Assembly: GCA_964017155.1 (NCBI GenBank)
Contig: OZ024862.1
Coordinates: 34,203,191 to 34,267,190 of the forward strand
DNA length: 64,000 nt
From: Oasisia sp. SBJ-2009
Taxonomy: Eukaryota; Annelida; Polychaeta; Sabellida; Siboglinidae
Reading direction: 5' to 3'
The translations under genes and the position numbers were made by a program. The notes under the pieces are model-generated. The model did not search any database and was not told where the DNA came from. It saw only the letters and a list, made by a program, of their open reading frames with translations. Shown here one piece after another: positions 21,091 through 64,000 of this stretch (positions are counted from its first letter, which is position 1; each line of letters begins with the position of its first letter).

Positions 21091-21092
21091 GT

Positions 21093-28211: not shown

Positions 28212-28247
<36 letters not shown>

Positions 28248-30742: not shown

Positions 30743-30819
<77 letters not shown>

Positions 30820-42439: not shown

Positions 42440-42810
42440 ACACTCCCAGCATGCACTTGAAGAGGAAGTACCTCTCCCGCCATGCACTAGAAGAGGAAGT
42501 ACCTCTCCCAGCATGCACTAGAAGAGGAAGTACCTCTCCCGGCATGCAGTAGAGGAAGTACCTCTGCCAGCATGGACTAGAAGAGGAAGTTCCTCTCCCA
42601 GCATGCACTAGAACAGGAAGTTCCTCTCCCAGTATGCACTAGAAGAGGACGTTCCTCTCCCAGCATGCACTAGAGGAGGAAGTACCTCTCCCAGCATGCA
42701 CTAGAAGAGGAAGTACCTCTCCCGGCATGCAGTAGAGAAAGTACTTCTCCCAGCATGCACTAGAGGAGGAAGTACATCTCCCAGCATGCCCTAGAAGAGG
42801 AAGTACCTCT
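42440..42810 (-). repeat. 31-bp minisatellite made from the urease C-terminus and stop
   Basis: About 11 units. On the minus strand each reads agaggtacttcctcttctag (RYFLF-stop) followed by a tgcatgctgg spacer. The first copy is the end of the urease CDS itself (42810-42791). Confidence 0.95.
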
Positions 42811-42906
42811 GGGCGAGGGCGAGCCGCTGGGCTGGTGGACAGGTAAGGTGTTGTGGAGTGGTCATCTCAGGGTCAGTGATGTGGACCTTGTAAGACTGGG
42901 GGTCAA
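42791..42906 (-). CDS. Urease terminal exon: VDPQSYKV ... AQRYFLF stop
   Basis: [15 protein letters not shown] to [11 protein letters not shown] and TAG at 42793-42791. The terminal RYFLF is invariant in the family. The last 20 coding bases form the first unit of the 31-bp minisatellite downstream. Confidence 0.97.
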
Positions 42907-45900
42907 CTGCAAGACAAGCACACAACTGACCGTGACAAGCTGCAAGCTCACAGGGTCCTTACAGGTATTGCTTGAGGTATGAGCACTGTGACGCACTGGG
43001 CTTTCAACAGAAAACACTGGTTTTAATGCTGTGCAGCTGAGTCAAACTTTGTACAAGCAATGCTCCTGGCTGTAGAGAGTGGTGGATATTTGTGTAGGAA
43101 CACCTGTTGTGCATAACTGTTTTGCAGCTTGGCTGAATGCTTCCCAGAGAAGTTGTGATGGTGTTCGATTGAACACGTTTACCTGGAGTAAAGTGTAAAA
43201 TGCTTTGAGCTAAAGACTTGATGTAGACTGTACAGTGTAAGAACTTTACCTTCACTCTACAAACACTGTGACATTCTTACAAACCAACCAACAGGCATTG
43301 TCTGAAGGCTTACCTGTGATCTTAGGCAGGTAGTCGTTGAGCACCATGTCAGCCTTGGAGAGCTTGCGACAACCCTTGACAGCCTCGGCACGCTTACTGA
43401 TGCCGTACTGGCTCACCACGCCAGAGTCCTTGCATGCCTGGAGACAGCAAAACAGACCACGTGTCAGTCAACACAGACCACGTGTCAACCAACCACAGAC
43501 CACGTGTCAACCAACCACAGACCACGTGTCAACCAACACAGACCATGTGTCAACCAATACAGACCACGTGTTAACCAACCACAGACCACATGTCAACCAA
43601 CCACAGACCACGTGTTAACCAACCACAGACCATGTATCAACCAACCACAGACCACATGTTAACCAACCACAGACCACGTGTCAACCAACCAGAGACCATG
43701 TATCAACCAACCACAGACCACATGTTAACCAACCACAGACCACATGCTAACCAACCACAGACCACATGTCAACCAACCACAGACCACGTGTCAACCAAAC
43801 ATAGACCACGTGTTAAAGGTTCCCAATCATTTCGTTTTGCCCGTCGCCAATCCTTTTCTTTGATGTCCTGATATGTAATGTTTCAATAGTTTAACTAGTA
43901 TGCAGTCAGTTTAATTTTAAAATGCGTAATTGTCTTTTTTTATTCGGCAAAAAAGAGTCGTCGTTACACTGGGTATAACTGGCGAAACCATTAGCCGGTG
44001 TAGACGTCCTGCCCTTTTTGGGTCACGTGTTTTATACGAGATCGGCATCTTACGGCACAATAACAAACCGCATGTGCTTTTCGGTGTCGTGACGAACGTT
44101 CCGAAGTGTTTCTTCTGTGAAGGTATGTATTAAGTGCTTTATCGCAGTTAGCAACCAGGCCGAGTAGTCGTGGGCTAATTCAACAAGAACTGCAACTTGC
44201 GAACTTCATTATAGGCCTACGCAACGCGGATTCCCTAACTTTAAACTTGTTCGATTATTTTTAAAGTTTGACACTGACAATCGGCATCGCATAGTCTCAG
44301 TCAGATACACTTGTACAGCCTGTATTTATAATGTTATATGTATTGTATTTGATTACGCAGGATCTTGTTCATAAGCTGTGTCATTGCGAAAGTACATATC
44401 TAGAGAGTGTAGATGACGTTAGGGACAAAATGATAACTCATTGGCTTCGGAACATTGGCAGTCGCTAGGCTCCGGGTGATCGTGGGGAGCATCCGTTATC
44501 TCGTGCAACAGAACGTCAAACGAATAATTATGTTGTTATCACAATTATTTAAACAGTGTTTTGTGACTGACATTTTACTATGATTGCTGGATGTTGTTGA
44601 TTTGCATTATATTTTATGCAACATAAGTTAGATTTTTATGACAACCACGATGGTGATGAATTTATTATTATAATAATAATAATAATAGTAACTTCTTTTG
44701 CGCCAATATCCTCGAAAATCAAGCTCAGTGGCGCGACAAAACCAGGGGATTAATCAATCTCATAATCGAAAGCAATGCGTGAGTCGTCAACGGATGGATG
44801 GAAAAGCTAGGAGGCTAAGGAGGATAGGCAGCATTAAAGAGATAGGTTTTTAGATGTCGGCGGAATGAAACTATATTACCTTGTGATTTAACACTGGCAG
44901 GAAGCGAATTCCACACCGTTGGTGCGGCAACCGAGAAAGCTCGGGTCCCGGCTTTCGTTTTCACCCGAGGGATGTGAAGAGGGTTACTACTGGTTACTAC
45001 TTTTATATTCAATATAAAAAATGTAAACCTGAACATAAAATGCTTGTATAGCTACTAGCTAGTGTACACCATATCATATGCAAGTATTACACATAACATT
45101 AATTCTTGCACTTGTTTCCATTGTGGTCAGTGATGCCTGGCTGTAGTCTTGTAATATCTGATACCTTTCAACTCACATATGCCAGCCGTCCTAATCTTTA
45201 TATTTTCATCACAGCAATATATGAATGCATAATACAACTCGAATTATGATATATTAGTATGGGCCACACTACAATGCAAGTTAGACGAGGCAGAGGAGGG
45301 GCTAAGATTAATGCAATCACTTGTGTCGGGCAAATGCATGGAGGATACGTAGTTTGCAAGAGGCCAACGTCTGATCACACCAACTGAATTAAACATTTTA
45401 ACAATCAACAAAGTATAAATTTTCAAAACATTTTAATATGCTTAAAAATATTCAATACACATTTGCTTTCATTAACATTTTCATAATATCTTGGACATGG
45501 AAAACTAGGATAACCTTTGCAGTTGTGTAATGCATGTTATACTAAGTGAGTCCAGTCCGGTGTCCACACAGACTTCGGCCAACACCTTTAAAAACATATT
45601 CAGCATATAACGATAACTCAGAAATAAATTTAAAAATCAGTTATTATTCATTCTGAAGAAGGTAGACATGTTTGAATATTTGGTGAAAGAAATATACTGT
45701 TGGCATCACAACACCACCTTGTTTTGTCACTTACAACATTTACTTTGACATGGATACAACCTCCAGCTGAGCCATTAAATGTCAAATATAACATATGTAG
45801 TAGTTATTACATGACATACCCTGACACAAAATTGTATATTGAAAATAAAACAGAAAATATGAATGCGCTATGTTTGGGAGTATTCAAATAATTCTATAAT

Positions 45901-48900
45901 AATATCCAAAATAAGGCATCCCTACAATTAAATATAGCAGGGTGATTTTACTTTCATGTAATGACGATACACACCTAATAGATTACAACCCTGCTTAAAT
46001 ATTAACCTGTACATGCTGCTGTAGACGAACATTTCTTGCTGCCTTTTTTGTGGAATGCTTTAGGTCATACATAACATATTATGTTATACAGCTGTAGATT
46101 TATTGATTATGGCAATGAACACTCCATAATGACAACTCTAATACCTTGATGCCAGTTGTTGTTTACTGAGTTTGAATATTATGCTTTTCTTTTTAGGTCA
46201 ACACTCAACAGGACACTGAACAGCACCACTAGGTCAACAAGTTAATAAGCTATATAGCGTCCAAGATCTCGGACAAGATTCCACAACCATGAGCTGTGCA
46301 AGAAAGTGCAGATCAAATGTCATGTGAATATCAACCGAGTGATCTCAGTTGTGTGTTGCATCCGTGACAGACTCCCCCGTACCGATGGTGTGTGCACTGA
46401 CTTCCAGGCCAGTCAGTTATCCAAACTCACTAGAGACCAATATAGAATGCAGGTTGCTTGACATGCGAATATGGTGATATCTGACTAGCTTTGCAGTTTG
46501 TGGTAGAACAGTGGGTGCCATGGTCTGGCAAATATGGCATGAGCCTTCGGTCAACCTCTCTCAACACTATAAGATAGGTTCGGCATTCTTTGGTGAACTT
46601 CATCGGCTCGGATATCGATGGCATTACTGTGTGAGTTCACTCTCTTTAATGGTACTGCATGCCAGGTACCTGACATTTTCTGTGCATCCACATCTACCTG
46701 TACAAGAAACAAAGTGACAATTAACATGGCTCTGACATTTATGATATCTTATGTGATGATACATTTAGCAAAAGTCAATTATACAATTGTTTGGTATTTG
46801 GTATTCATATCGTAAACTCTACATGCCAGATATGTTACACTTTACTAAGACCTGTTATATACCTAAGCTGACAATTTAGATGCATATTAACATATATAAT
46901 GCTTTACTGGTCAAGCGGTTTAATTTTTAAACATTACAACCGTGCATAGCTGTGTGTGTGACAACAATTGTAATAATTGTTTTACCAGCAGAACTGATTA
47001 GTATAAAGAATTGGTGTTACTCAATGACAGAAGTACCGCACACTTGAAACTCGTTTTATTTCCAGGTCATAGGGAAGCCTGCACCCTTTGACTTTGCATA
47101 GGCTAATGATGAATAATTTTGAATATGTTGTAGGTTTGTAATTATGAATTAAATGTTTCTTCACCATAATCACATAGTTGGCATATTTTTCTCTGGTTAT
47201 TCATATGAGATGACCACAAACACAGCAACATTGTATGAATGCAGTGACATAGGTGGGCATTAATTAGTGCTTTCTGTAAAGATAGAGTTATATATTCCAC
47301 TTTACTCAGCCTACCCAATCAGAATGCAGTTGATACCAATTATAGTGTATGATGTAATGGGTATTTCAATGTATAATTTCCGTAATGTTAATTTCTGTTT
47401 GTAACATAAATATGGCAACATATAATTAACCAACATACACCACACTTACATCATTATAAACATAAATAATCAAAACAAACAAACATCTTTCTTGCCATTA
47501 TACAAAATGAATAGTTTATAAGAAACATCTTTAAAATGCAGTTATTTGTGTCATGATGAGATTTTATGAATATCAAATACCAATGATTACCTCCATTCTG
47601 GTAGTGCCGTCTTCCGCTCTTGTCATCAGTGTCATGTCTTCATCGTCTGTATTCATCAGTCACAATTTCTTCAATGTCATGCACAAGTTCACATGTAGTA
47701 ACAGGCTGCAGAGTGGCAACGTCTTTGCGGCATCTGAAATAAAACATAACCAACCCAGTGAGCATTACTGTAAACACCTCAAAATGGACTTTAATCATCA
47801 ACACTGGCCCAAGAGGTCCTCAGGTCCTTTGGACTATACAGCCCTGAATAGTGAATTTGTAATATTGAATGAAATTTATTTTTGTTAATCTTAATCACTG
47901 CTGAGTTTTTCACCACAAAACACAGCAAATTGTGTTCGTTAACTTGCACAGCACCATAACAGGTCATTAGTGGTTTTAAGTAAAATAATATTAGAATAAA
48001 CTGTTACTAAAATCAGTTCATTTTAATGCCATGAAGATTAAGTGAGCTGAAAACCTACTTACTGTTCCTCACAACTGCACTGTAGGCATACTACTGAAAT
48101 TTCATCATGACGAAATGTACCAGTCTGTGAGACTAACAGTCTTTCTTTAATATTGGTCATAAACAAAGGTTGCTAGTATTAGCGCAGTGGTTCAAGGGTA
48201 GAGCATCGGACTCTCAAATAAGAGGACCCTGGTTCAAATCCTGTGCCGCCATGTGAAACCTTGGGCAAGTTTTTTCACACTACATTGCTCCAGTTAACTC
48301 AGCTGTATGAATGACTACCTGGCTATAAACAGTGATGAATATTTGTGTACAAGCAGTCTTCGCGAAATTGTCACGTGGCTGAATGCTTCCCAGAGAAGCT
48401 GAGATGGTCTTCGATTGAACAGGTCTGCCAGGGAGTAAAGTGTAAAAAGCGCTTTGAGCAATCCTAAAGATTGGATACTGCGCTATATAACAACTTACCT
48501 TTACCTTTAAACCATGACAAAACTTACAAGTTTGTGTAATAGTTTTGCATACAAAAAATGTACTTGATGTAACATATACACACACACCACAATATTTACC
48601 GGCGAATCTCTTCTAGTGTGTCATCTCCAAATTGATAGGTTCTATCAGCTGGATCAACTGCTTCTAATCACACTGTGTCGTCATCATAGGGGATTCTGCA
48701 ACAATATAAATTTTATGATTTATATTATGCAAAAATATTGAAGAATACATGTATGGAAAATCAGCTGGAAAAGTGAACTGCAAATGAAATACAAAATAAA
48801 ATTGAAAGTTTGACAAAAGCTGTGTTAAGTGTACACAAATAAGAATGGCCAGACTGGCTAAAAATCAATCAAACATGTTTTTACCATGGCTGGTCACAAA

Positions 48901-51900
48901 GAAATTCCATTCGCAATCCAGTCAAGTCATCACTGTAGTGACGAATATTGGCAAATTCTTGAAAGAAAATTGTACTGGGCTGTGGACCCATCACTGGGTA
49001 AAAGCAGTATACATGTACATGTACCATGGTCATACATCTGTATTTCTTCACTGTTCAAAAATTCTTAAACTTCAAGATTTAATTACACATAGGACTATGG
49101 TTATGCTTTATAAAGCAAACAACCACTGTTTAGAAGGTCGTGTACAAGCGTTCTTTGAACCAACTGCAGCCGTACACAAGCATGATACCAGACAATCTAA
49201 ACTATTTTATGTTAAAAAAGCAAACACCACCCATAGACTACTGTCAATTACTGTCAGAGGTATACACGTATGGAACGGTCTTGCATGTAATATAAGACAG
49301 TTGCCAAGTTTACAACAATTTAAGAAAAGTTTAAAGTCGACGTTACTTTCTTCGTATTTATGAACAATTAACATAATGAAAAAAAAATATTATTGTTGGT
49401 TTGTATTAAATCTTATAACTTTTACTATAACTGTTGCGCATTTTAGTTGAAAAGGGCATAGCGCCTTACAAGTCATATGACTTCTGCTATGTCCTTTTAA
49501 CAACAGCACCGATATTATATTGTATTGTCGTTACCATTATGTATTGTATTATTTTTCATACTATGTTGTATATTCATGTGTTGCTGTTGTTAAATAAACT
49601 TTCATTCAATTCATTCATAAATACTGTGACATAAATAGAAAATCTACCCATGGTAGAACTGTCACTAAATTACAATTGATACAACTTATGAGACGTTTTT
49701 TATAGATTTACTTGATATTTGTGTTATGTTTGCTTTATGCCTAGTAAACAGATCTATACCAGTTTAATATGTACAGATTCATAAATCAGACAAACAGACA
49801 TGCAAAACTCCCTGAAAATGTATACTGATATACATAGATCTCTAATATTTATAAACATTACCAACAACATGTATGTTTAACTCAAAATCAGTGCTTGAAA
49901 ACATGCTCGCAAGTGATTTATTGATAAGTTTTGGGTACCAATGCGTCCTCATTCTTCTTGAGAAGGAAGCATGGAAGGATATTGAGAGTTACTTGTTTTT
50001 TATGTGTTTGGTTTGATTTATGCCTGGTAAAAGTTTCATAACAATATCTTCTAATCCACACTGACCGGTCTGAAGTTTGCTAATTTTTAAGAAATATAAA
50101 ATGTAGTACGTTTGGGTATGTGTACAATTCTAATTAAGACAATCAGGCATGTCATATTGCTCTGATAATACACAATGTTATGCATATATATCAAACTGAC
50201 ACAACAGTTCATTGAACCATCCATATTTAGCTTACAATCAATGTCTGAAAACCCTCTCATATATCACGAGCAATTTATTTTAAAAATTGGGGCACCCAGA
50301 CACATGCAATTTTTGTTGCGAAGGAGATATTGAAACTTACTAGTTATTTGAGTTATAGGAATGAGCTTACACCTAGAAAAGGTTTTGTGACAATACAAGC
50401 TACGCCTCATCAAAATGTTTGGGTCGGAAGTTGGTCATATTTTAAGAAATATAATAACATACCATCTTTGCATATGTATAGATTCATAATTAAGGCAACC
50501 AGACTTGCCATATTCCTCCGATTTGCACATTTATATAACAAATATGTACAATTTATCAATTTATGTCTAAGGTATGTGTATTCTGCTCACAATCAGAACC
50601 CTATCGCAAGGGATATTTTGAATAAATCATGATTTGTATCAAGTTGCTGTACATTAACCGTACACTGTATTTATATTATAATTGTAGTTATGTAACTCTA
50701 TATTATATAGATCAACTCAACACAATTTCACTGACACAGGCTCAAGATTGCAGAATATATTGACTAGTGAAATGTGAATAAAATTATTTATTTTTAACAA
50801 GCTGTCAAATGTAAAAGTGCCATAACTTGAAACGTATTTAAGCTTAAACGCTCAAATGTTTGATTCTTGCTAATCTTATCAAATCCAAAGCGGCAAAGGC
50901 TCTCATCATACTGTATTACTGATCTATTCAAAAATAATCTAAGACTAAGACGTCGATGACAGCAACCAATTTATTTATTTGTATTTAATAAATTATTTTA
51001 ATTTATTTGCGTTCACTCGGAATGACCGTAAATGGCCTAATACCGTATAATTTAATAGCAAAACAATTTTGTCAGCTGGCACACGCAGTATTAAAACAAT
51101 GTAAAAATGGTTGAAGCCGAGTAATAACAGAGTACTAACCTGTCGTACATGTCATTTGATTCCACAAGTTGCACAAGTCTATAACTTTTTCCAAATACAC
51201 GTTTGCGCACGGCCGCTGTTTCCGTCTTTCTGCGGCTCTTTGTCATTCGTGCACTTTCCCGTTTCCTTGCCCATTCGATCGCAAACATACGCGGGGGCGT
51301 CCCATCGGTGATAAAAAACAGCAAAAGAAGGGAAAATTGCGACTCGACTGTCTCGAGTCTATTAAACAGTCTATCGAAGGACAGCATGGACGGGTCAAAG
51401 GTCGATCTCACTATTCCTTTTCGCTCACGCGAGATTTTCAAGCTACAGTCTTTTCCGGATGTCACGGTAACACAGATGTGTGGTTCGAGTTTCGGCTATG
51501 ATAGCAAATACTCTTTTTCTGAGTTTTCTGGTTATTTCATAAAAACGAAGGCACACATATGCATAAACGAGTTAGCATGTCACAGGGGATACTTTGTTGG
51601 TTTGCTTTTTCGTGAAATTAGTCTGAAACGCGAGGAGCAAAAACAATCGAACTGATAATGGAGTTTTAACCAACCACAGACCACATGTCAACCAACCACA
51701 GACCACATATCAGCCAAACACACACCACGTGTCAACCAACCACAGACCACATGTCAACCAAACACAGACCACATGTCAACCAACCACAGACCACATGTCA
51801 ACCAAACACAGACCACATGTCAACCAAACACAGACCACATGTCAACCAACCACAGACCACGTGTCAACCGACCACAGACCACGTGTCAACCAACCACAGA

Positions 51901-54900
51901 CCACGTGTCAACCAAACACAGACCACGTTTGTTTTGTTGTAAATCAATTGTGTCAAACTGGTGCCTATCGAGTTGACACTCTTGTTCAGGGGGGTGGCGA
52001 TAGGTGCATATGCAAATTAGTGTACGACAGACCAGTTGAGGGGTGTGATACGTGCATACGTCTGCTATGGAAAAAAATTCACAAAAGGGAAACGATCTGC
52101 ACTCAAGGTTGTGTTGTGATCATGCAATAATAAAATAAAAAAGACCCCTCTCAAAACCAATTAATGACCTGTATAATGAACTTGTTGGTTAAATGTCAGC
52201 TGTCACTGGACTTACCTGAGAGACAAACACGACAGAGTTGTGGCCAACAGCTCGCCCATAAGCGCCAAACTGTTTGCGTTGTTTCACAGGTTGCGGGGTG
52301 GGGATTGAGGCATTTGGCATTCCTGAGAGATAGACCATAAAGTCTTGTTTCAAGACAATAAAATAAATAAGGGAAAACATAACTGTAATAAAGACTTTTA
52401 TTTATGAGCAATATAACTATGGAATAAAACTATGTTCAGAGATGCACAAAATACAGAACTGTTAAAAATTTCCCAGTACAATAAAACTTATTTTATTTGA
52501 TTAAAAACACATTTTAGAAAAAACATAGTTAAACACTTGGTATATCTATAAATGATGAGTATATTAAATGTCAACAATGCAAAAATAAAATTAAATAAAA
52601 AATTATTATATATTTATAAAAGTTTTAGATAATTACAGCATTTATATTACGATTCTATAATGACGGAGGTAATTGTTGGAAACCAAACTGACCCATCTGT
52701 GCCCAAGTGATGTAGCCTCCTTTGATGATGATCTCGGGTTTCGCTCCAAAGAAGGCGGGATCCCACAACACCAAGTCAGCCATCTTGCCGACCTACTCAA
52801 GGTCAAACCATTAGTTACTGAAGATCTCGAGTCTCAAAATGAAATATTATAAGGTGCTATAGTAATTATTATAAATTACAATTACTAGAAATCCCAAATG
52901 GATGTAATATATAGGGCCTACCTCAAGTGAATGTTAATGCAACACTGAAATTATGTTTCAACGTATCCGAAATTATTCTCAAATGACATGTTTAAAACGT
53001 AATTCTGCTAAGCTACTCCCCATGTCAAGTCCGGTCTACCAACATTCCGACACAACATTCTGACACAACATTCCAACACAACATTCCGACACAACATTCC
53101 GACACAACATTCTGACAACATTCCGATGCATGCAACATTCCGACGCAACATTCCGACAACATTCCGACACAACATTCTGACACAACATTCCGACACAACA
53201 GGGTAAAACAAAATCAAACGTTGCTGCTTACAGACAAGGCAACTTCTCATAACTGCCCCTTCCATAGCTCCAAGGGGTTTTATATGTGTGAGAGCCAGTG
53301 AGACGTCACCACCCTTCAGTCTGTGTCTTGTCACAGACACAGGCTTCAGACGCTGTCATCTCTACACAAAGATGAACAACCACCATATCTTTAGTGAACA
53401 AAACACGTGCATCAAGTTCCACGTACCTCGACAGAACCAATCAAGTGCCCCATGCCGTGTCCAATGGCGGGGTTGATGGTGTACTTGGCAAGGTACCGTC
53501 TCACACGAATGTTGTCATTTTCTCCCTAAACATCAAGAACAGACAATAAGAAAATAAGATTATTTTTCAGGTATCATAGCTCTGCATCTTCATGAAAACA
53601 ACTTGATGTCAAATTGATAATTTTATTTTTATTTAATACAAGTTGGTACTTTTAAAAATTGTGGCATTTCACAATTAGGGTCTAGGATTGCAAAATAAAC
53701 AAATAGATATAACAAAATACTAATACGACTAATCATATTTAATATTGTGCAAATGAGCATAACTTGCACGGACATCATGATTCGCAGATGTAATAACCTG
53801 TACACATTTTATGACTGCAAGATGTCTAGTAGATCTATGATCTACTAGACACCATAACTTATAGAGATCACATAATTAACACAGGCATATTAATTGGCAG
53901 GGATGTCATATCTGCCAGAGACCTCATGACCCTGCAACACAGACCTCATGACCCTGAGACACAGAGCTCATGACCCTGAGACACAGACCTCATGACCCCG
54001 AGACACAGACCTCATGACCCCGAGACACAGACCTCATGACCCCGAGACACAGACCTCAAGACCCCAAGACACAGACCTCATGACCCTAAGACACAGATCT
54101 CATGACCCTGAGACACAGACCTCATGATCCCGAGACACAGACCTCATGACCCTGAGACACAGACCTCAAGACCCCGAGACACAGACCTCATGACCCCGAG
54201 ACACAGACCTCATGACCCTAAGACACATACCTCGTAACCCTGAGACATAGAACTCATGCCCCTGAGACACATACCTCGTGACTCTAAGACATAGACCTCA
54301 TGACCCTGAGACACATACCTCATGACCCTGAGACATAGACCTCAATCGTGACCCTGAGACACATGCCTCGTGACCCTGAGACACATGCCTCGTGACCCTG
54401 AGACACAGACCTCATGACCCAGAAACACAGACCTCATGACCCTGAGACAGACCTCGTGACCCTGAGAAACAGACCTCATGACCCTGAGACACAGACCTCG
54501 TGACCCTGAGACACAGACCTCGTGACCCTGAGACACAAACCTCATGACCCTGAGACAGACCTTATGACCCTGAGACACAGACCTCATGACCCTGAGACAC
54601 AGACCTTATGACCCTGAGACACAGACCTTCTCCGTAGTGAGTCTGCCCCTGAAGCGCCTCATCTTGTCGGCTGTCTGCCAGGTGCGGGTGATGACCTCCC
54701 CGATGCGGCCCATGGCCTGGGAGTCGGAGGAGATGATGCTGATGGCGCCCATGTCATGCAGCATGTCCTCCGCCGCGATGGTCTCCGCACGGATACGGGA
54801 CTCCGCAAACGCCACATCCTCCTTCAGGTTCCTGGAGACACCCACGGGGCAGTGGTGAGACACGGGGATGATGGGTAAGACATTGGGGATGATAGGTGAG

Positions 54901-57900
54901 ACACGGGGATGATGGGTAAGACATGGGGGATGATAGGTGAGACACGGGGATGATGGGTAAGACATGGGGGATGATAGGTGAGACAAGGGGATGATGGATG
55001 AGACACGGGGATGATGGGTGAGACATGGGGGATTATCGGTGAGACACGGGAATGATGGAAGAGATATGGGGGATGATAGAAGAGATATGAGACATGGGGA
55101 TGATGGGTGAGACATGGGGGTTGATGGGTGAGACATGGGGATGATGGGTGAGACATGGGGGATGATGGGTGAGACATGGGGGATGGTGGGTGAGACATGG
55201 GGATGATGGGTGAGACATGGGGATGATGGGTGAGACATGGGGTTGATGGGTGAGACATGGGGGTGATGGGTGAGACATGGGGATGATGGGTGAGACATGG
55301 GGGATGATGGGTGAGACATGGGGATGATGGGTGAGACATGGGGATGATGGGTGAGACATGGGGATGATGGGTGGGACATGGGGATGATGGGTGAGACATG
55401 GGGGATGGTGGGTGAGACATGGGGGATGATGGGTGAGACATGGGGGGTGATGGGTGATGGGGGATGATGGGTGAGACATGGGGATGATGGGTGAGACATG
55501 GGGTTGATGGGTGAGACATGGGGGTGATGGGTGAGACATGGGGATGATGGGTGGGACATGGGGATGATGGGTGAGACATGGGGGTTGATGGGTGAGACAT
55601 GGGGATGATGGGTGAGACATGGGGATGATGGGTGAGACATGGGGGATGATGGGTGAGACATGGGGATGATGGGTGGGACATGGGGGATGATGGGTGAGAC
55701 ATGGGGGATGATGGGTGAGACATGGGGGATGATGGGTGAGACATGGGGGATGATGGGTGAGACATGGGGATGATGGGTGGGACATGGGGATGATGGGTGG
55801 GACATGGGGATGATGGGTGGGACATGGGGATGATGGGTGAGACATGGGGGATGATGGGTGAGACGTGGGGGATGATGGGTGAGACATGGGGGTGATGGGT
55901 GATGGAGGATGATGGGTGAGACATGGGGATGGTGGGTGAGACATGGGGGATGATGGGTGAGACATGGGGGGTGATGGGTGATGGGGGATGATGGGTGAGA
56001 CATGGGGATGATGGGTGAGACATGGGGGTTGATGGGTGAGACATGGGAGTTGATGGGTGAGATATGGGGGTTGATGGGTGAGATATAGGGGTTGATGGGT
56101 GAGAAATGGGGGGTGATGGGTGAGACAGGGGGTTGATGGGTGAGACATGGGGGGTTAATGGGTGTGGTTGATGGGTAAGTTATGGGGTTGAAGATCAAAT
56201 AAGACAGTACATTGTAACATACCCAAGGAATGTAATCTTTTCAAACTTGTTATGACATTGACACTTCCTGTACACTTTGCCATGTTTAAGATGTACAGAG
56301 TATTTTATGTTTGGTCAAAAGTCCAGTTTGTGAAATGTCCACCTCTCCAGATCCTGCCACTACAGCAACATGTCAGTGTGTTCATGAAATGTCCACTTGT
56401 CCAATTGGTGACATGTCAATGTGTTCGTGCTATACCTACTGGTCGAGGTGGTGACACACCATCAGCATGTCGAGGTGTTCGTCGATGGTGTTCTTGGTGT
56501 AGGGTCGGGTGGGGTTGGTGGAGGAGGGCAGCACGTTGGGTTCCCCACACACGCGGATGATGTCGGGGGCGTGACCCCCTCCCGCGCCCTCCGAGTGGTA
56601 CGTGTGGATCGTTCGACCGCGGAAGGCCTTGATGGTTTGTTCCACACAAGCCGACTCATTCAACGTGTCCGTGTGAATCATCACCTACGTCATAGGCCAA
56701 TCCTCAAGTTGTTGACACTACCAAGACACTGATGAATGAAAGAAGATATTCATAACCTGGGCGATATTATTTCTTATACTATTATACTATTTTGTAGTTT
56801 ATGTAATTTTGAAATGTTGGTTATTCAAAGTCAAAGTGCATTGATAATGGGTGAAAACTTTATATGAGATGCTTTTTCAACAAAGGCTGCGTCATGATTA
56901 GTTCCCAACAAAACTGACATTACAAGTCCACATTTTAATAAATTAACTTTTTTCTAATTTGTCAACATTCAACTTTAACAGGACTTTTTAAGGCATAGAT
57001 ACAATGTCATCTTTTTTCTGGTATTGCAGAGGGGAATTTGCAGTGGCCTGTGATACCTGGACGTCCATCTTTTCTGCCACCCGGAGGCAGTGGTCAATAA
57101 CGGCCGGAGTGGAGCCCCAGTCCTCATGCAACTTCAACCTACAGCAAGAGAGGGCGCCACTGATATCTACCCTCAGTTGTATAAATCACTTGATCTGCAT
57201 AAGCCATAATGTACTGTATTCATGTCACCATCGTCAATTGAGGGGCTTTAATCCACAAAGATATTCAAATGATATTCTTCCTAAAAGATATTTCTTAGAA
57301 TCACCCTCATCCCGTCAAAAGACAACAGTGAAGCCAAAAAAAAATGCGTTAAAGTGTTTATAAGTGGGATTTAAAGTGCCATATTTGTTGAACATCGATA
57401 TAAAGCTATAGCATATTGCTGGAAAAACAAATAAATATAAATTTACTGCCAGCGCGTTTTTAAAGTACTCAGGCGAATGACAGACTCTGGCCTGAGAGGA
57501 AATATAATTGACAATAATTAATGAAACGCCCACAAACCCAATGGCTCCTGCTTTGATCTGTTCTTCCAATTCACAGGATTCTCCGCTCGACCGGGATGTG
57601 TTTCCTTTGCCCGTGAAGCCAAAGTTCAAAGGGAATGCGTCTGTGCTCTGTATCATGAACCTGTGCGACACAAGTTCACAGCTAATTGTAGGAAAAAAGT
57701 TGTAAAATTGTGGAATTTTGGATTCCACTGGTTTTATTGCAACATCTGCCTCAGCCTGTGTGAGTGCCTGCCTCAGCCTGTAGTGAGTGTCTGCCTCAGC
57801 CTGTAGTGAGTGCCTTCCTCAGCCTGTAGTAAGTGCCTGCCTCAGCCTGCGTGAGTGCCTGCCTCAGCCTGTAGTGAGTGCCTGCCTCAGCCTGTGTGAG

Positions 57901-60900
57901 TGTCTGCCTCAGCCTGTGAGTGCCTGCCTCAGCCTGTGTGAGTGTCTGCCTCAACCTGTGAGTGCCTGCCTCAGCCTGTGTGAGTGTCTGCCTCAGCCTG
58001 TGTGAGTGTCTGCCTCAGCCTGTGTGAGTGTCTGTCTCAGCCTGTGTGAGTGCTTGCCTCAGCCTGTGTGAGTGTCTGCCTCAGCCTGTGTGAGTGCCTG
58101 CCTCAGCCTGTATGAGTGTCTACCTCAGCCTGAATGAGTGCCTGCCTCAGCCTGTTTGAGTGCCTGCCTCAGCCTGCGTGAGTGCCTGCCTCAGCCTGTG
58201 TGAGTGCCTGCCTCAGCCTGTGTGAGTGTCTGCCTCAGCCTGTGTGAGTGCCTGTCTCAGCCTGTGAGTGCCTGCCTCAGCCTGTGTGAATGTCTGCCTC
58301 AGCCTGTGTGAGTGCCTGCCTCGGCCTGTGTGAGTGTCTGCCTCAGCCTGTGTGAGTGTCTGCCTCGGCCTGTGTGAGTGCCTGCCTCGGCCTGTGTGAG
58401 TGTCTGCCTCAGCCTGTGAGTGCCTGCCTCGGCCTGTGTGAGTGCCTGCCTCAGCCTGTGAGTGCTGCCTCTACCACCTACCTGATGTTGTTGGGTCCGG
58501 GGCTACAGGTGGTAGCACAGGTCCCCGTGGCGGGGCCAGTGCCGCCTCCAAACAGAGTCGTGATGCCGGCCGCGATGGCCTCCCTGGCCAGCTGAGGACA
58601 GATGAAGTGGACGTGGCAGTCCAGGGCACCGGCGGTCAGCACGAGGCCTTCCCCTGCGATCACCTCCGTCCCCACACCCACCGTCAAACCCTGCAACAAA
58701 CCCTTCTACTGAGAGCAAGGTACTGTCATGATGTAACCACTGAGAAGACGCAATAACAAATGTCAATGCCAGAGTAGACAGGTTGACGTCATCGTTGGTG
58801 ACAATGTTCTGAAGACAGGTTGAATGTTCAAAGAGATCCTACGTTAACAATAAGACTTTTACCAGTGAGCGAAAACCACATTGCCAAGCCCGGGAATAAA
58901 CCACGATTAACTGCATCCCTATAAATACCACCAAACCACAGGACCATAACCCCTCTCAAGTGACAGCGACTGTCAAACTGAAACCAACCCTTTTACTATG
59001 ATCACCTACGATTTATGTCAACTGTCAAACCTTTAAGCAAACCCTCTACCTTTAACCATCTCCTAGACTGACTGGCAATAAAAAAATTAAAAAGCCTTTT
59101 ACAATAATCGCTTGCATCTCAACCCAACTGTCTAATTATGATACAAGTCTTTCTATTGTGATAACATCCGGGTCACTTACGGGGGTAACTTTGTCCATGA
59201 CATCAGGATTTCCAGCTTTGCCAATTCCCACGATCATCCCGTCCTGAAACACACGTGTTCACATGTCAAAACACACGTGTTCACATGTCAAAACACACGT
59301 GTTCACATGTCAAAACACACATGTTCACATATCAAAGCACACATGTTCACATATGTCAAAACACACCTGTTAACATGTCAAAACACACCTGTTCACATGT
59401 CAAAACACACCTGTTCACATGTCAAAACACTGCCACATACACAATGCAACCTTCTTCCATCAAGGTTAACTGTTTCACATTTACAATAAGAAATTGTGAC
59501 TTTTCATTAAGCAAAACCCAAAATATACCCAGACTTATGCGTGGTCCATGGCTGTGGAACTCTCTCCCTGTTGAGATGAAGAAAACCAGTTGCCTCATGA
59601 CTTTTAAAAGACTATTGAAAACTCACCTATTCCGGGCTGTGTATGAATCTGTCAGTTTATTTAATTTGTTTTTTTTACCTCTTTTTATCTTGTACATGTT
59701 TTACATTAATTTTTATTTTACAAAATGTCATACTCATTATTTTATTATCAATATACCATTTATTTTAATAATGATCTTTAGCTAACTTATTTATTTTATT
59801 ATTTATTATTATTACTTTTTTTATACATATTTTATGTATTTTATTTACCTTAACTAACTTATTATTAAAATTCTACGACACATTTATACTTATTCATGTA
59901 CATCGCCCCCGAATGGATATTTCTAGATTCATGGCTCTTTATAAATGTTCTTCTTCTTCTTATTATTATAAAACATTTCATGTAAATTACACCTGGATAA
60001 ATTTTAGTTACATAACTAAATAAGATCATACAGTTAATCATCATTCCAGATTTACTAGCTACGTAGCATATGTTGAATTAAATAACAGCTTCAAGCCTCC
60101 CATGACGAGGCAGTCTGACGGGAAAGATAAGTCTTTGTTTCGTCACCTTGATCCCAACGTCGGCCTTGATGACTCCAGCGACAGCGTCGACAATGAGTGC
60201 GTTAGTGATGACAGTGTCAGCAGCGACATCATTGGCCACCAGCGCAGCCTGCCCCATGCCTTCGCGCAGCACCTGGCAACAACACGGGCAGTGGGTGACT
60301 GTACGACTACTACAAACATCACCATCTGTCAATGAGTAGGTCATCAGTTATCACTCATTATCAACCACTACGCTGTCTCAGGTATTAGTTATTACCTGTA
60401 AACAATCAAGGCATCAGATATATGTATTATCTGAAGAAGCACAGACATGGGAGTGAAATTAATTGGGGGCCAAGAATCACCAGAGAATCTTCACTACACT
60501 TCCACTGTCTCTTGGCAGATCATGGTGGAGCCCTGTTAGAAGAGTTGCATCAAAAGTTAAGCATCTCATCTCATCTGCTCGTTGGCTGACTACACTGATG
60601 ACAGATATCAGAAGAATGGGGGGCTGGTGAAATTTTTTCACAGCCATCTTGCTGTAATTTCTGATTTACTGGGAGCACATTACCCTATGTCTGCTCCCAT
60701 CGAAATTCCAGAAGGCACAACTATTCCTTTGTCTCCCTTTTCCTGTGACTTATACACAAAGACAAGCCAGAGTTTTAAGGTTCTTGTGTGTGTGCGTGCG
60801 TGCGTGCATGCATGTGTAAGTGCTGGTGAAAAATCTTCACAGCAGTGTCGTCTAACTTTTAAACCATGTCTGTTCCCACCAACATTTCAGAGCAGGCAGT

Positions 60901-63900
60901 TGCCTGGTCCCATGTCTACACACAGACTTGGGCACAAGAATGAAGCAACTCACCTTTCCTCCTCCGAACTTACACTCGTCTCCGTAGGACGTGAAGTCTC
61001 TCTCAACCTCAATCACCAGCTCCATGTCTCCCAGACGCAGCTGCACAGAACACACCAACCCATGAACACATCATGAACACACTAACCCATGAACACATCT
61101 CGAACACACCAACCCATGAACACACCAACCCATGAACACATCACGAACACACCAACCCATGAACACATCACGAACACATCAACCCATGAACACATCACGA
61201 ACACACCAACCCATGAACACATCACGAACACACCAACCCATGAACACATCGCAAACACACCAACCCATGAACACATCGCAAACACACCAACCCATGAACA
61301 CACCAACCCATGAACACATCATGAACACACCAACCCATGAACACATCATGAACACACCAACCCATGAACACATCAACCCATGAACACATCATGAACACAC
61401 CAACCCATGAACACATCAACCCATGAAGACATCATGAACACACCAACCCATGAACACATCACGAACACACCAACCCATGAACACATCACGAACACACCAA
61501 CTCATGAACACATCACGAACACATCACTGCAGACACAACCAGGCAACCTAGACACCACAGCACCTGGATGACCCAGACATGACAACGCAGACAGGATGAC
61601 AGACACGACGACAAAGACACCACACAGACACCACACAGACACCACACAGACACCATACAGACACCTCACAGACACCACACAGACACCACACAGACACCAC
61701 ACAGACACCTCACAGACACCACACAGACACCACACAGACACCACACAGACACCACACAGACACCACACAGACACCACACAGACACCACACAGACACCACA
61801 CAGACACCACACAGACACCACACAGACACCACACAGACACCACACAGACACCACACAGACACCACACAGACACCACACAGACACCACACAGACACCACAC
61901 AGACACCACACAGACACCACACAGACACCACACAGACACCACACAGACACCACACAGACACCACACAGACACCTCACAGACACCACACAGACACCACACA
62001 GACACCTCACAGACACCACACAGACACCACACAGACACCACACAGACACCTCACAGACACCACACAGACACCACACAGACACCTCACAGACACCACACAG
62101 ACACCACACAGACACCACACAGACACCTCACAGACACCACACAGACACCACACAGACACCACACAGACACCTCACAGACACCTCATACACCAAGAATGTA
62201 CACCTTATATACTGTGATGGTTAACTCTGAAAATCCAAATTATAATTTCAGTGTGAATTCCACTCCATCCATATGGAATGCTTTTGGGAATTTGGAAGCC
62301 ATACAGTGTTGTTGTTGTTGCCACTCCATGAATTCACAAGAAACGTCCCTTTACTGCAACCTATGACCTATACCTACCTTATCTCCGGTTGTTGGTCCAT
62401 ACGTGTGAGCATACACACGACGACTTATCGTGGCGACTGGTGGCTCCCTCGCAGGCACAGTCTGTCAACAGTTACTGGTGCTGATTAACGGCAAGTGGAA
62501 AAACGATTACAAATGTTGATAGAACATATACATAAAGTCACAGATTTTTATCAACATTTGTTCACCGTAATTATTGTATATTTACTAAACCATGTCATGA
62601 TTTGTAACTCTTGCAGATGTCCTACATTACAATGTACTACAAACTGATTCCGGAGAACCATGAGCTATGAGCTCTTCAGTACTGGACAGAACATCAATCT
62701 GCCGTCACAGAATGTACACTGACAGTGGAGTCATGTTAAATCCTTGGCATGTATTGTGGTGGAATTACCCTAACATCTTGTCGTTTGCTGTTCCCCAGCT
62801 CTGCTGTATTCAATAAACATTAGTCCAATTAATTAGTGCTAATTCGACACGTCTGATGGGAGAACTGACATTTCATCTCCATCCCTGGGGTTAGTCTCAT
62901 GGTCTCACAACAGACAGTGCCAACACCTAACATGAGACCATTATTTTATAGTACCAGTAATTTAAAAAAAAAATAATATTCAGACTTTAGGAAAATGTCA
63001 ATTTTTTATTACTACTAACTATTCTGCCTAACAAACATTTTGTACAGTAAACTCATTGAAATAAGTAAAATTCCCATCCAACTGAAAAGTGTCCGTGTGG
63101 TTATGACGTGGTTCCCATTTCAAGATACACAGTACCCCATCACGACTACATCTTGAAAATTGGGTAGGGTAGATCCACCAGCTTCCATCCTACATTACTT
63201 AGCACCTCTGGGGTAGACCCTCCACAGTATTAACTAATGCTTGTTTCACCCTATTCTTAACCCTTTACCTTCACCTCACATCGTCTCCCGTGTCAACACA
63301 AATATTGAAGGTACATCAAATACACGTAGGTGTAAGTCTCTCTACCCAGGTACCCTGTTGACCCACACCTGGTCTCCAGAGGTTAGAATGTCCTATTCTG
63401 CTAGGCCAGCGATCCGTTTTTGCCTGACACGACACTAAGTGAGGACACTTGCCTGTTCACGGTGAGCAAAGCTGCCATTTTTCACGCGCTCCATCACACC
63501 TGCCAGGTTGTCCTGAGTCACAGGTCCATCACACAGACCATTGCCACCTCGCACTACCCTGTCAACAGTCACAGGTCCGTCACACAGACCATTGCCACCT
63601 CCCACCACCCTGTCAACAGTCACAGGTCCATCACACAGACCATTGCCACCTCGCACTACCCTGTCAACAGTCACAGGTCCATCACACAGACCATTCCCAC
63701 CTCGCACTACCCTGTCAACAGTCACAGGTCCATCACACAGACCATTGCCACCTCGCACCACCCTGTCAACAGTCACAGGTCCATCACACAGACCATTGCC
63801 ACCTCGCACCACCCTGTCAACAGTCACAGGTCCATCACACAGACCATTGCCACCTCGCACCACCCTGTCAACAGTCACAGGTCCATTGCACAGACCATTC

Positions 63901-64000
63901 CCACCTCGCACCACCCTGTCAACAGTCACAGGTCCATCACACAGACCATTGCCACCTCGCACCACCCTGTCAACAGTCACAGGTCCATCACACAGACCAT
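42791..64000 (-). CDS. Urease, alpha (catalytic) domain part of a fused eukaryotic urease; 5' end outside window
   Basis: Urease hydrolyses urea to ammonia and carbamate at a dinickel centre in the cytosol. Exons, in coding order on the minus strand: 64000(partial)-63453, 62461-62378, 61040-60954, 60272-60147, 59243-59181, 58690-58482, 57660-57538, 57138-57057, 56684-56440, 54831-54627, 53525-53427, 52792-52693, 52322-52216, 43437-43314, 42906-42791. All junction phases agree. The 14 complete exons give 1770 nt, that is 589 codons plus stop. Visible hallmarks in order are [28 protein letters not shown] (two Ni ligands), LKLHEDWG (carbamylated Lys), [28 protein letters not shown] (flap Cys/His), SSDSQAMGR (Ni-ligand Asp) and C-terminal AQRYFLF-stop. 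All metal and catalytic residues known for the family are present, so the alpha domain looks functional. The gamma and beta domains lie upstream, past 64000. One oddity is GTCATTC where the family usually has Arg in place of the first Cys. Maturation would need accessory proteins, and none are seen here. Confidence 0.97.
43005..43260 (+). mobile_element. 5'-truncated SINE copy
   Basis: Matches the body of the 48179 element: gcttggctgaatgcttccca, gttcgattgaaca, gtaaagtgtaaaatgctttg. It lies in the last urease intron. Confidence 0.75.
43314..43437 (-). CDS. Urease exon: [20 protein letters not shown]
   Basis: [20 protein letters not shown] followed by [20 protein letters not shown], the normal near-C-terminal segment. 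Acceptor tctccag, donor ACAG^GTAAGC, phase 0 to phase 1. A 22-bp minisatellite begins about 15 bp beyond the acceptor. Confidence 0.96.
43453..43816 (+). repeat. 22-bp minisatellite, left part of split array
   Basis: accaaccacagaccacgtgt plus ca, with gtgttaacc variants. It continues as the same repeat at 51666. Confidence 0.95.
44655..45050 (-). mobile_element. CR1-like LINE 3' end
   Basis: The minus-strand frame [20 protein letters not shown], then [26 protein letters not shown] and stop is a typical LINE ORF2 C-terminus. It has an (aat)n tail. Confidence 0.85.
46255..46730 (+). pseudogene. Degenerate integrase-like fragment
   Basis: The plus-strand frame with [27 protein letters not shown] and [11 protein letters not shown] resembles the end of a cellular integrase-core domain found in many invertebrate repeats (pattern RLWRD..V...YY, ...LHRLG). 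Stops and frameshifts occur upstream. The resemblance is from memory and weak. Confidence 0.25.
48179..48520 (+). mobile_element. Full-length tRNA-derived SINE
   Basis: Head gcgcagtggttcaagggtag (A box) and ctggttcaaatcc (B box), body ccttgggcaagttttttcac, and end gcgctttgagcaatc ... gcgctatataacaa with a tacctttacctttaaa tail. Confidence 0.85.
48850..49622 (+). mobile_element. LINE 3' end with (attc)n tail
   Basis: The frame includes [44 protein letters not shown] and [21 protein letters not shown] (49361-49363). A 3' UTR ends in cattcaattcattcataaat. Confidence 0.85.
49705..50640 (+). repeat. Ancient tandem repeat of about 280-345 bp, about 3 diverged copies
   Basis: Recurring blocks begin at about 49709, 49991 and 50336 (ttacttg..tttatgcct.gtaaa), and further on (gattcataa.taaggcaa.cagac; caatcagtg.ctgaaaa.c). 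Divergence is high. Confidence 0.5.
51666..51935 (+). repeat. 22-bp minisatellite, right part of split array
   Basis: Same unit (accaaccacagaccacatgt) as 43453-43816. Confidence 0.95.
52216..52322 (-). CDS. Urease exon: [10 protein letters not shown] ... VVFVSQ
   Basis: [20 protein letters not shown] to FVSQ, phase 1 to phase 0, donor CAG^GTAAGT. The intron that follows (43438-52215) is the longest in the gene and contains the TTAA-flanked insertion. Confidence 0.96.
52693..52792 (-). CDS. Urease exon: [17 protein letters not shown]
   Basis: [20 protein letters not shown], then IIIKGG and ITWAQM, the usual late alpha-domain segment. Phase 0 to phase 1, donor ATGG^GTCAGT. Confidence 0.97.
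53035..53205 (+). repeat. 15-bp repeat (acattccgacacaac)
   Basis: About eleven copies in the intron between urease exons 52693 and 53427. Confidence 0.9.
53427..53525 (-). CDS. Urease exon: [14 protein letters not shown]
   Basis: 33 codons, [20 protein letters not shown] through GHLIGSVE. Phase 0 at both ends, donor GAG^GTACGT. Confidence 0.97.
53930..54626 (-). repeat. 22-bp minisatellite made of splice-donor-like units
   Basis: On the minus strand the unit is gtctgtgtctcagggtcatg plus ag, about 31 copies. The copy touching the exon supplies the real donor (AAG^GTCTGTG). Confidence 0.95.
54627..54831 (-). CDS. Urease exon: SSDSQAMGR (Ni-ligand Asp)
   Basis: 68 codons from [14 protein letters not shown] to RGRLTTEK, with [22 protein letters not shown] and RTWQTADKM. 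The donor AAG^GTCTGTG is non-consensus and is identical to the start of the 22-bp repeat that follows it in the intron (53930-54626). A second array begins about 25 bp upstream of the acceptor. Confidence 0.97.
54858..56175 (+). repeat. About 20-bp minisatellite (gatgggtgagacatggggat)
   Basis: About 65 copies with g-run length variants. It fills the intron before urease exon 54627-54831. The 371-530 codon minus-strand open frames are repeat by-products. Confidence 0.97.
56440..56684 (-). CDS. Urease exon: Ni-binding [19 protein letters not shown] and flap VCHHLD
   Basis: The largest complete exon (245 bp). It carries [38 protein letters not shown] and [14 protein letters not shown], so it holds most of the active site, including the mobile-flap Cys-His. 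It ends in phase 2 (CA^GTAGGT). Confidence 0.98.
57057..57138 (-). CDS. Urease exon: carbamylated lysine (LKLHEDWG)
   Basis: 27 codons, [11 protein letters not shown] to EKMDVQ. The Lys of LKLHEDWG is the residue that is carbamylated to bridge the two nickels in the family. Acceptor ttgctgtag, donor CAG^GTATCA. Confidence 0.97.
57538..57660 (-). CDS. Urease exon: [20 protein letters not shown]
   Basis: About 41 codons ending KAGAIG. It reads [17 protein letters not shown], as in plant ureases. The weak donor GG^GTTTGT is the only one that keeps frame with the LKLHEDWG exon. Confidence 0.95.
57742..58472 (+). repeat. 20-22 bp minisatellite (gtgagtgcctgcctcagcct)
   Basis: About 34 copies, ending about 10 bp from the donor of the urease exon at 58482. 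Confidence 0.97.
58482..58690 (-). CDS. Urease exon: nickel-ligand His pair (DCHVHF)
   Basis: Encodes [18 protein letters not shown], then CHVHFICPQ with the two His ligands, then GGGTGPATG and PNNIR. The codon split AG^G at the donor (GTAGGT) matches the next exon. GTCATTC has Cys where most ureases have Arg, which would be a CGT-to-TGT CpG transition. A 20-22 bp minisatellite starts about 12 bp past the donor. Confidence 0.97.
59181..59243 (-). CDS. Urease exon: [19 protein letters not shown]
   Basis: A 21-codon exon ([11 protein letters not shown] is diagnostic). Donor CCC^GTAAGT. The acceptor tgtgtttcag abuts a 22-bp minisatellite whose unit carries tgtgttttga at the equivalent place. 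Confidence 0.96.
59246..59430 (+). repeat. 22-bp minisatellite abutting a urease acceptor
   Basis: cacacgtgttcacatgtcaa plus aa, about eight copies, the first overlapping the acceptor at 59244-59253. Confidence 0.95.
59430..59960 (+). mobile_element. LINE 3' end
   Basis: The frame contains [33 protein letters not shown] and [16 protein letters not shown], a CR1-like ORF2 C-terminus. An AT-rich 3' UTR follows and ends in ttcttcttcttattatta. Confidence 0.8.
60147..60272 (-). CDS. Urease exon: VLREGMGQ ... KADVGIK
   Basis: 42 codons including [11 protein letters not shown] and KADVGIK, typical of the N-terminal part of the urease alpha domain. Acceptor gttgccag, donor GTGACG, phase 0 at both ends. 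Confidence 0.96.
60954..61040 (-). CDS. Urease exon: LRLGDMELV ... [10 protein letters not shown]
   Basis: 29 codons, phase 0 at both ends, donor GTGAGT. The acceptor tgtgttctgtgcag forms the last, slightly altered unit of the minisatellite that begins immediately upstream (61041 onward on the plus strand). Confidence 0.96.
61045..61520 (+). repeat. 27-bp (and 16-bp) minisatellite abutting a urease acceptor
   Basis: caacccatgaacacatcacg plus aacacac, about 17 units. The unit next to the exon is modified into ctgtgcag^. Confidence 0.95.
61605..62190 (+). repeat. 11-bp minisatellite (cagacaccaca)
   Basis: About 53 copies with an occasional cagacacctca variant. It makes long open frames on both strands. 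Confidence 0.97.
62378..62461 (-). CDS. Urease exon: start of alpha domain
   Basis: 28 codons beginning [15 protein letters not shown] and ending YGPTTGDK, a highly conserved urease motif. The acceptor is tgttgacag and the donor is GTAGGT. Phase 0 on both sides joins HREQ of the previous exon to LRLGD of the next. Confidence 0.95.
62462..63452 (-). other. Urease GC-AG intron, no array
   Basis: Begins GCAAGT after CAG and ends tgttgacag. No repeat or internal exon was seen. Confidence 0.7.
63453..64000 (-). CDS. Urease exon (partial): beta/alpha linker, with 17-residue tandem repeat
   Basis: The 3' part encodes [16 protein letters not shown] and ends AHREQ, the segment that precedes the alpha domain in fused ureases. 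The splice donor is CAG^GCAAGT, a GC-AG intron type. Upstream in the same open frame the sequence [17 protein letters not shown] (17 codons, 51 bp) repeats about nine times to the window edge without a stop. The single-copy equivalent (RGGN...DGPV) is a normal urease segment. Either the repeat is translated, or each unit's ctgttgacag serves as an alternative splice acceptor. Confidence 0.85.
63518..64000 (-). repeat. 51-bp minisatellite within the urease exon, 17-codon unit
   Basis: About nine and a half copies to the window edge. The reading frame stays open, with rare variants ([13 protein letters not shown]). Confidence 0.95.

Follow-up and report, generated by a model that had tools for sequence, protein, structure and literature searches.

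Exon edges hold far more minisatellite arrays than random placement gives, both in the urease gene of a probable siboglinid annelid and in unrelated chaperonin genes from that genome. These arrays are probably exon-edge minisatellites of the kind described as mirages for amphioxus and as exon stuttering for chicken, in which a segment at a junction is duplicated and then grows within the intron. Exon-edge repeats have precedents in the lancelet and on the dot chromosomes of chicken, which raises the question of whether such repeats are peculiar to chordates; a third lineage, distant from both, bears on that question. The window analyzed is a stretch of 64,000 nucleotides that contains most of the urease gene and a neighboring gene, and coordinates given for these two genes are window coordinates.

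The urease gene and its arrays

The urease gene is intact, with 21 exons and an open frame of 854 codons plus stop when the window is read together with the DNA upstream. Its last 15 exons occupy 42791..63558 on the minus strand, and exon 1 starts at coordinate 77202, beyond the window. The exon map confirms all seven edges at which the initial annotation had placed arrays: four acceptors (43437, 54831, 59243 and 61040), two donors (54627, 58482) and the stop codon, whose last base is 42791. It also places a 51-bp array, missing from that earlier list, on top of acceptor 63558. A homology search named no siboglinid urease fragment among the 120 matches listed of 6417; an Rfam scan of the window gave no match at gathering level, and Pfam gave none above its curated cut-off for ten open frames from the window.

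The urease arrays described here are given on the minus strand. Array A1 (42443..42810; about 12 copies of 31 bp) runs across the stop codon; its unit consists of the last 18 coding bases (RYFLF-stop) and 13 bp of 3' UTR, and 20 bp of coding sequence lie inside the array. A4 (53919..54628; 22-bp unit) runs across donor 54627 with 2 exon bases inside, and A10 (51-bp unit), the array at acceptor 63558, occupies 63516..64000 within the window and continues past it to 65911. Other arrays stop just short of an exon. Two blocks with a 22-bp unit, A2a (43452..43813) and A2b (51668..51926), form a single array, A2, divided by a 7.85-kb insert; A2a ends 14 bp from acceptor 43437, and its unit is unlike that junction. 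A5 (54854..56153; 20/21 bp) lies 22 bp from acceptor 54831, A6 (57746..58471; 22 bp) 10 bp from donor 58482, A7 (59247..59430; 22 bp) 3 bp from acceptor 59243 and A8 (61048..61527; based on 27 bp) 7 bp from acceptor 61040. A3 (53040..53200; 13 bp) and A9 (61611..62182; 11 bp) are 226 and 195 bp from an exon edge and so are not edge arrays. Thus, with arrays of at least 100 bp counted in 42440-64000 and the two A2 blocks taken as one, 8 of 10 (A1, A2, A4, A5, A6, A7, A8 and A10) lie on an edge or within 25 bp of it, in agreement with the initial annotation.

Placement in the second gene and in other genes

The neighbor of urease is a gene of 10 exons on the plus strand (16484..37532). From the second-exon donor onward its exon joints are matched by a Ridgeia piscesae protein model, with acceptor 23929 outside the coverage. 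Across that acceptor runs a 29-bp array, G2a (21779..23934, plus strand), with 6 exon bases inside, and a 21-bp array, G2b (29052..30024, plus strand), lies 18 bp from acceptor 30043. A two-copy duplication with a period of 39 bp (16537..16603, plus strand) flanks donor 16568, one copy ending 4 bp upstream of the donor and the other beginning 8 bp downstream; it looks like an early stage of an array.

With the two genes combined, an edge is no more than 25 bp away for 9 of 20 intronic arrays, where 2.25 are expected (P 4e-5). Urease by itself gives 7 of 13 against 1.94 (P 5.4e-4), and the second gene by itself is weak (2 of 7 within 25 bp against 0.32, P 0.027; 1 of 7 within 10 bp, P 0.13). 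The near-edge count is still in excess when arrays down to 40 bp are included, a set in which the median array-to-edge distance is not shorter than chance (P 0.70, or 0.94 with A2 as one). The view that chance placement could be dismissed stands as to the excess, but the chance share is not negligible: introns are short once arrays are taken out, and about 2 of the 20 arrays would be expected near an edge anyway.

That share and the unshortened median are what could be said for chance, or for a selective reading of one striking gene, an account made hardly credible by the excess above and by the chaperonin genes. Of the 26 arrays counted in nine chaperonin loci of this genome, 20 are at exon edges and 6 are away from them; the count was not a blind one, and the rough binomial P is 4e-14 even with a generous background of 12 percent. 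In five myosin loci the result is weaker, with 2 of 6 minisatellites at an edge in a small sample. The affected genes are spread over seven contigs (C1, C2, C8, C9, C11, C12 and C13). Since most arrays of the sampled chaperonin genes are at exon edges, the question of where arrays are seeded can be tested genome-wide.

Spanning and abutting arrays

Two classes of array must be kept separate, those that span a boundary and those that merely abut it. The unit of a spanning array holds bases of the exon together with the stop codon or splice site. By the exon map and array phasing, the spanning arrays of the region are A1 (at the stop codon), A4, A10 and G2a, and 12 of the 26 chaperonin arrays also span an edge. 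Donors are spanned by A4, C13:10278 and C8a:5955, and acceptors by A10, G2a and ten chaperonin arrays; no more than 1-2 exon bases are included in C8b:30544, C8a:5955 and A4. The units of A2, A5, A6, A7, A8 and G2b are no closer to the leftover junction than to other junctions, and so a junction origin for these six abutting arrays as well is not supported. The proposal of the initial annotation that tandem duplication begins at splice junctions is supported by edge placement but only in part by unit content, the boundary being contained in some of the arrays and not in others.

Spanning arrays place copies of the splice site in the intron, and in A4 and G2a these decoys score about like the real sites. 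Of the 28 donor-like sites in A4, one is the real donor and 5 others score equal to it or higher; in G2a, a score of at least 4 is reached by 65 of 68 AG sites, among them the real acceptor. Such arrays, which can set as many as dozens of nearly identical splice sites beside one exon, are natural tests of splice-site choice. The spliced frame of urease stays intact when the decoys are ignored. Unit length is a multiple of 3 in 4 of the 12 acceptor-spanning arrays, which is the chance level and is consistent with decoys that stay unused in the intron.

Array A10 is where use of a decoy deserves most attention. Its unit comprises 43 exon bases and 8 intron bases, in frame and stop-free, and the array consists of 46 complete units, all of 51 bp and with no indel, plus the exon copy. 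Some arrays, chiefly this one, might then be coding, with a far acceptor spliced and the repeats translated to add up to 782 residues to urease. Array C8a:2874 is likewise open throughout, and among A10 variants those shared by at least five units are silent without exception (5 of 5), against 3 silent and 9 not among rarer ones (Fisher P 0.009, with a five-unit cut-off picked by us and units that are not independent). We nevertheless consider a coding role unlikely. The proximal acceptor yields urease without an insertion; the far acceptor is weaker (score 2.9 vs 4.9); TAG replaces CAG at the end of 10 of the 46 units, although the acceptor dinucleotide is still present; distinct changes (8 silent, 9 not) are near the one third silent expected; and the acceptor-spanning arrays lack the bias toward multiples of 3.

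Proposed origin and the edge bias

Arrays of the exon-edge kind would begin when a piece of junction DNA about 18-75 bp long is duplicated in tandem; usually this piece would be the end of the intron just before an acceptor, to which the first bases of the exon may or may not be joined. The pair would then expand and contract within the intron, presumably by slippage or unequal exchange. The exon-adjacent copy would keep its function, leaving the coding sequence unaltered, while the remaining copies would persist as intronic decoys that splicing normally skips. This would be a concrete route for intron lengthening. Why junctions should be the usual starting point can be suggested in several ways.

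Transcription or splicing may make junctions mutational hot spots, by way of R-loops, of polymerases that pause at exon edges or of spliceosome-bound DNA, so that first duplications fall there, a reading we hold only tentatively. The excess is greatest at acceptors, with 15 chaperonin edge arrays there vs 5 at donors. The sense strand of acceptor arrays also tends to be rich in G (17 of 22 arrays, sign P 0.017, post hoc), and the skew of non-array intron in urease and the second gene is merely 0.01. Arrays off the edges, however, are skewed alike (6 of 10 positive), and the G skew, taken as an R-loop signature, does not set acceptor arrays apart from inner ones (P 0.98); A5 is skewed the opposite way (-0.83), and the seven donor arrays lean that way too (mean -0.12).

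Splice signals rich in T or TG, being of low complexity, might seed ordinary slippage, which would agree with the abundance of T and G in many acceptor-array units. This account is improbable, given that the 21 array-free acceptors and 27 array-free donors of urease and the second gene have no excess of short internal repeats or self-match relative to 600 random intron windows (P 0.39-0.96).

Survivorship, in which arrays arise anywhere and those tied to a constrained edge persist, the exon copy being unlosable and correcting the others, is somewhat less plausible than the hot-spot reading. Copies decay away from the exon in some spanning arrays (C12:6124, C8a:5215, G2a and C1:10915), but there is no overall polarity: after one of 23 arrays was dropped for having fewer than 8 copies, 10 of 22 had the better-preserved copies on the exon side (P 0.46). 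Abutting arrays hold no exon copy, and the duplication around donor 16568 exists with two copies.

A broader form of the preferred origin would make the splice junction itself the main birthplace of intragenic minisatellites in this lineage, with duplication tied to transcription or splicing genome-wide and introns growing at their ends, above all on the acceptor side. We regard this as conceivable, with the odds somewhat against it.

Relation to known systems

In the amphioxus genes described as having mirages (Adh3, globins, PGBD5 and troponin C), the features shared with our arrays are boundary-including tandem repeats, decoy AG/GT sites and both edge types (PMC3087553, PMC3902484). The initial annotation had taken acceptors as a step beyond a donor-only precedent; this does not hold, since the account of the amphioxus globins already has duplications at both boundaries, donor and acceptor (PMC3087553). 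Here too, both 5' and 3' boundaries are duplicated, and a repeat spans the exon-intron boundary in A4, A10, G2a and the spanning chaperonin arrays, but not in the abutting A2, A5-A8 and G2b. Amphioxus mirages are further characterized by regular splicing that is left undisturbed, by edge copies that escape homogenization and by haplotypes that differ in repeat length; in 22 of our arrays, each of at least 8 copies, edge and middle copies do not differ significantly (P 0.10 on the exon side, 0.46 on the far side). The present case differs in its organism, which to judge by protein matches is not amphioxus, and in its genes (urease, its neighbor and chaperonin genes), in the many arrays that merely abut and in the one across a stop codon.

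On chicken dot chromosomes, sequence or exon stuttering is described as the expansion of local sequence by which an exon border and its splice site are copied into the adjoining intron; in more than 90 percent of the cases in the exon screen reported there, copied pieces lie no more than 1 base from the border, and dot chromosomes account for 190 of 236 introns (PMC12954441). Copying of an exon piece and splice site into the intron is found here in the spanning arrays only, and our cases, a small sample, are on seven contigs. The Rogers model of intron gain by tandem duplication of AG/GT segments, as cited in PMC3087553, shares a duplicated segment with splice signals; here, by contrast, the introns divide conserved coding exons and the arrays lengthen them, with no new intron shown. 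The passages on earthworm metallothionein genes place minisatellites in the first intron and do not describe exon-edge seeding (PMC12783039). In the open-licence literature, no paper was found for 'mirage minisatellite', nor for 'vestimentiferan' with 'minisatellite'.

The insert in array A2

The insert that divides A2 (43817..51665, no strand assigned) has TTAA at both ends (43813, 51666). Its terminal inverted repeats score 26, not better than shuffles (mean 22.9, maximum 34). The TTAA ends are in register with the A2 unit, of which variants with TTAA exist, and the insert is therefore younger than the array.

Gene models

The urease gene lies on the minus strand, and its last 15 exons fall inside the window, all with splice-site ends and a continuous frame; the exon at 63453-63558 ends with the only GC donor among them (CAG/GCAAGT). 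The window part of the protein (624 residues) aligns over its full length to urease chain 4g7e. With 29 kb of extra DNA beyond the window, a complete model of 21 exons can be built, whose reading frame runs uninterrupted from Met to stop over 854 codons. Among the best 120 of 7997 protein relatives, Capitella teleta leads at 78 percent, followed at 77 percent by Anneissia, Antedon and Lingula; the Branchiostoma belcheri protein reaches 75 percent.

For a second, plus-strand gene (gene 2), the protein matches include one in Ridgeia piscesae, with 90 percent over 96 percent of the query, and one in Lamellibrachia satsuma, with 62 percent over 62 percent. The protein matches point to a vestimentiferan (siboglinid) annelid. 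The exon joints of gene 2 match the Ridgeia model, beginning with the donor of exon 2; the acceptor at 23929 lies outside that model and is based on frame and splice signals. A possible third gene, with exons read by eye, can be traced at 540-4300 (+), and arrays at 729-1388, 1907-2107 and 2192-3091 lie about 90 bp from its exons.

Placement of arrays relative to exons

The initial annotation held that chance placement in introns would not put arrays so close to exons, and the two genes taken together have more arrays near exons than random placement gives. Each intronic array (at least 100 bp, period at least 8) was reduced to a point and placed uniformly on the remainder of its intron, for the 29 introns of urease and gene 2; array A1, being non-intronic, is outside these counts. 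Nine of the 20 arrays are no more than 25 bp from an exon, compared with 2.25 expected (P = 4e-5), and six are within 10 bp (0.96 expected, P = 1.8e-4). When arrays from 60 bp are admitted, 10 of 25 are near exons (2.40 expected), and with arrays from 40 bp and period 5 the count is 10 of 30 (2.81 expected, P = 1e-4). Urease by itself gives 7/13 (1.94 expected, P = 5.4e-4) and gene 2 by itself 2/7 (0.32 expected, P = 0.027), or 1/7 within 10 bp (P = 0.13). An earlier run on fewer exons gave 7/13 (P = 1e-4), with gene 2 alone at 1/4 (P = 0.25); in that run arrays of at least 100 bp had a short median distance to exons, an effect that disappeared when arrays down to 40 bp were included (P = 0.70).

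Spanning and abutting arrays

Phasing of the repeat units tells two classes of array apart: spanning arrays contain an exon edge or stop codon, and abutting arrays stop short of the edge. Unit phasing places four in the spanning class: A1, whose unit comprises the last coding bases and stop codon of urease; A4, at donor 54627, with two exon bases repeated; A10, at acceptor 63558, with 43 exon bases repeated; and G2a, at acceptor 23929 of gene 2, with six exon bases repeated. The abutting arrays (A2, A5, A6, A7, A8 and, in gene 2, G2b) are separated from an exon edge by 3 to 22 bp, and A3 and A9 are away from edges. Units of the abutting arrays match their leftover junction no better than other junctions (ranks 6 to 23 among 22-24 junctions); A5, the one nearest to its leftover junction, has rank 6 and a shuffle fraction of 0.052. 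Donor 16568 is flanked by a two-copy duplication with a period of 39 bp, the first copy stopping 4 bp before the donor and the second beginning 8 bp after it. It belongs to the three sub-threshold duplications listed for the gene regions, of seven across the window, and was missed by a scripted criterion requiring a copy no more than 3 bp from a junction.

Arrays that span a splice junction carry candidate decoy splice sites; those of A4 and G2a were scored with a weight matrix built from the remaining junctions. In A4 the real donor scores 7.1, and six of 28 donor-like sites, counting the real one, score at least 7.1, three of them at 9.0. In G2a, 65 of 68 AG sites, again counting the real one, score at least 4, mostly 8.5-11.8, compared with 9.3 for the real acceptor. 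The nine in-window acceptors of A10 are identical across 23 bases. Unit length is a multiple of three in four of 12 acceptor-spanning arrays, the chance rate, which is consistent with the decoys going unused.

Chaperonin and myosin genes of the same genome

The genome sampled comprises 764 Mb in 33 contigs. A chaperonin family search returned 49 matches, of which 46, in nine loci, were taken and three single matches were excluded. In these loci 26 arrays reach 100 bp or more (C2a and C3 have none), and they were classed by reading flanks and phasing units. Ten span an acceptor, reaching 1 to 57 bp into the exon (just 1 bp for C8b:30544), and five abut one at 5 to 10 bp; two span a donor (by 19 and 2 bp), two begin 11 bp past a donor, and one begins at a donor that is placed only approximately. 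The six off edges are C11:10031, C8b:1280, C8b:16056, C8b:23693, C1:9952 and C2b:13295, the last situated beyond the chaperonin matches. A rough binomial for the edge arrays gives P = 7e-17 at a background of 8.6 percent and 4e-14 at 12 percent, the background being our own estimate and the count not blind, because exons were read after the arrays had been seen.

Regarding exon identity, seven of the 20 edge arrays adjoin family-search matches. Ten further exon peptides were compared: seven match the chaperonin family with E = 1.4e-6 to 0.012, all under its curated cut-off, and the remaining three have their matches in chains of CCT zeta (1.9e-8), Hsp60 (2.3e-13) and CCT theta (7.5e-4). For the exon beside C1:2998, identification was by eye only.

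A myosin search gave 78 matches in the genome, and five small loci were examined. Two of their six minisatellites (at least 60 bp, period at least 8; four arrays with period 4-5 were excluded) are at an edge, one at a donor (by eye) and one at an acceptor; three are off edges, and the one in region L057 is assignable to neither group.

Relation to known repeats

By anatomy, as far as the portions of the reports consulted describe it, the spanning arrays are of the same kind as amphioxus mirage repeats (PMC3087553, PMC3902484) and chicken exon stuttering (PMC12954441), which copies exon borders into introns. The same portions describe both donor and acceptor edges as affected in each system (PMC3087553, PMC3902484, PMC12954441), so the earlier suggestion that acceptors here go beyond a donor-only precedent is not supported. 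No annelid report of exon-edge repeats was found in an open-licence library, the longer result lists having been seen in part. In the available sections of the Ridgeia genome paper, tandem repeats are mentioned solely as a method, and the average intron is longer than in three other tubeworms (PMC9921365).

A possible coding reading of A10

Tandem Repeats Finder assigns A10 47.0 copies and extends it to 65911. When phased, it begins with 7 bases, followed by 46 complete 51-bp units, free of stops and indels, and then the exon copy; 36 units end in CAG and 10 in TAG. The distinct changes are eight silent and nine non-silent, where one third would be expected to be silent. Variants present in at least five units are all silent (5/5), compared with 3/12 of rarer ones (Fisher P = 0.009, with a five-unit cut-off of our choosing and units that share ancestry). 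Translation of A10 is a possible but less likely reading. The C8a:2874 array is also open in frame throughout, and the C1:11763 array has one stop in the examined stretch.

Origin and growth of the arrays

Seeding by low-complexity sequence is not supported: compared with 600 random intron windows, the 21 array-free acceptors and 27 donors show no greater self-similarity. Among acceptor arrays, 17 of 22 have a positive sense-strand G skew, as do six of 10 inner arrays, and the skew does not separate the two groups (P = 0.98). Copy divergence has no overall trend in polarity across 22 arrays. These three tests leave two candidate explanations for the seeding step: the junction may be a hot spot for it, or edge-tied arrays may survive preferentially.

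Array A2 holds a 7.85-kb insert with TTAA on each side, in register, which shows that the array predates the insert. Possible minus-strand exons of another gene can be read by eye within it at 46200-51500. Open frames at 44815-45051 (-), 48806-49363 (+) and 59201-59785 (+) resemble C-terminal pieces of non-LTR retrotransposon reverse transcriptases; a Pfam scan of the latter two gave no match. Beyond the window, another array of the urease gene is split as A2 is (regions L002-L003): its blocks, at 72339-72815 and 74857-75631 in window coordinates, have the same 23-bp unit, with about 2 kb of other DNA between them.
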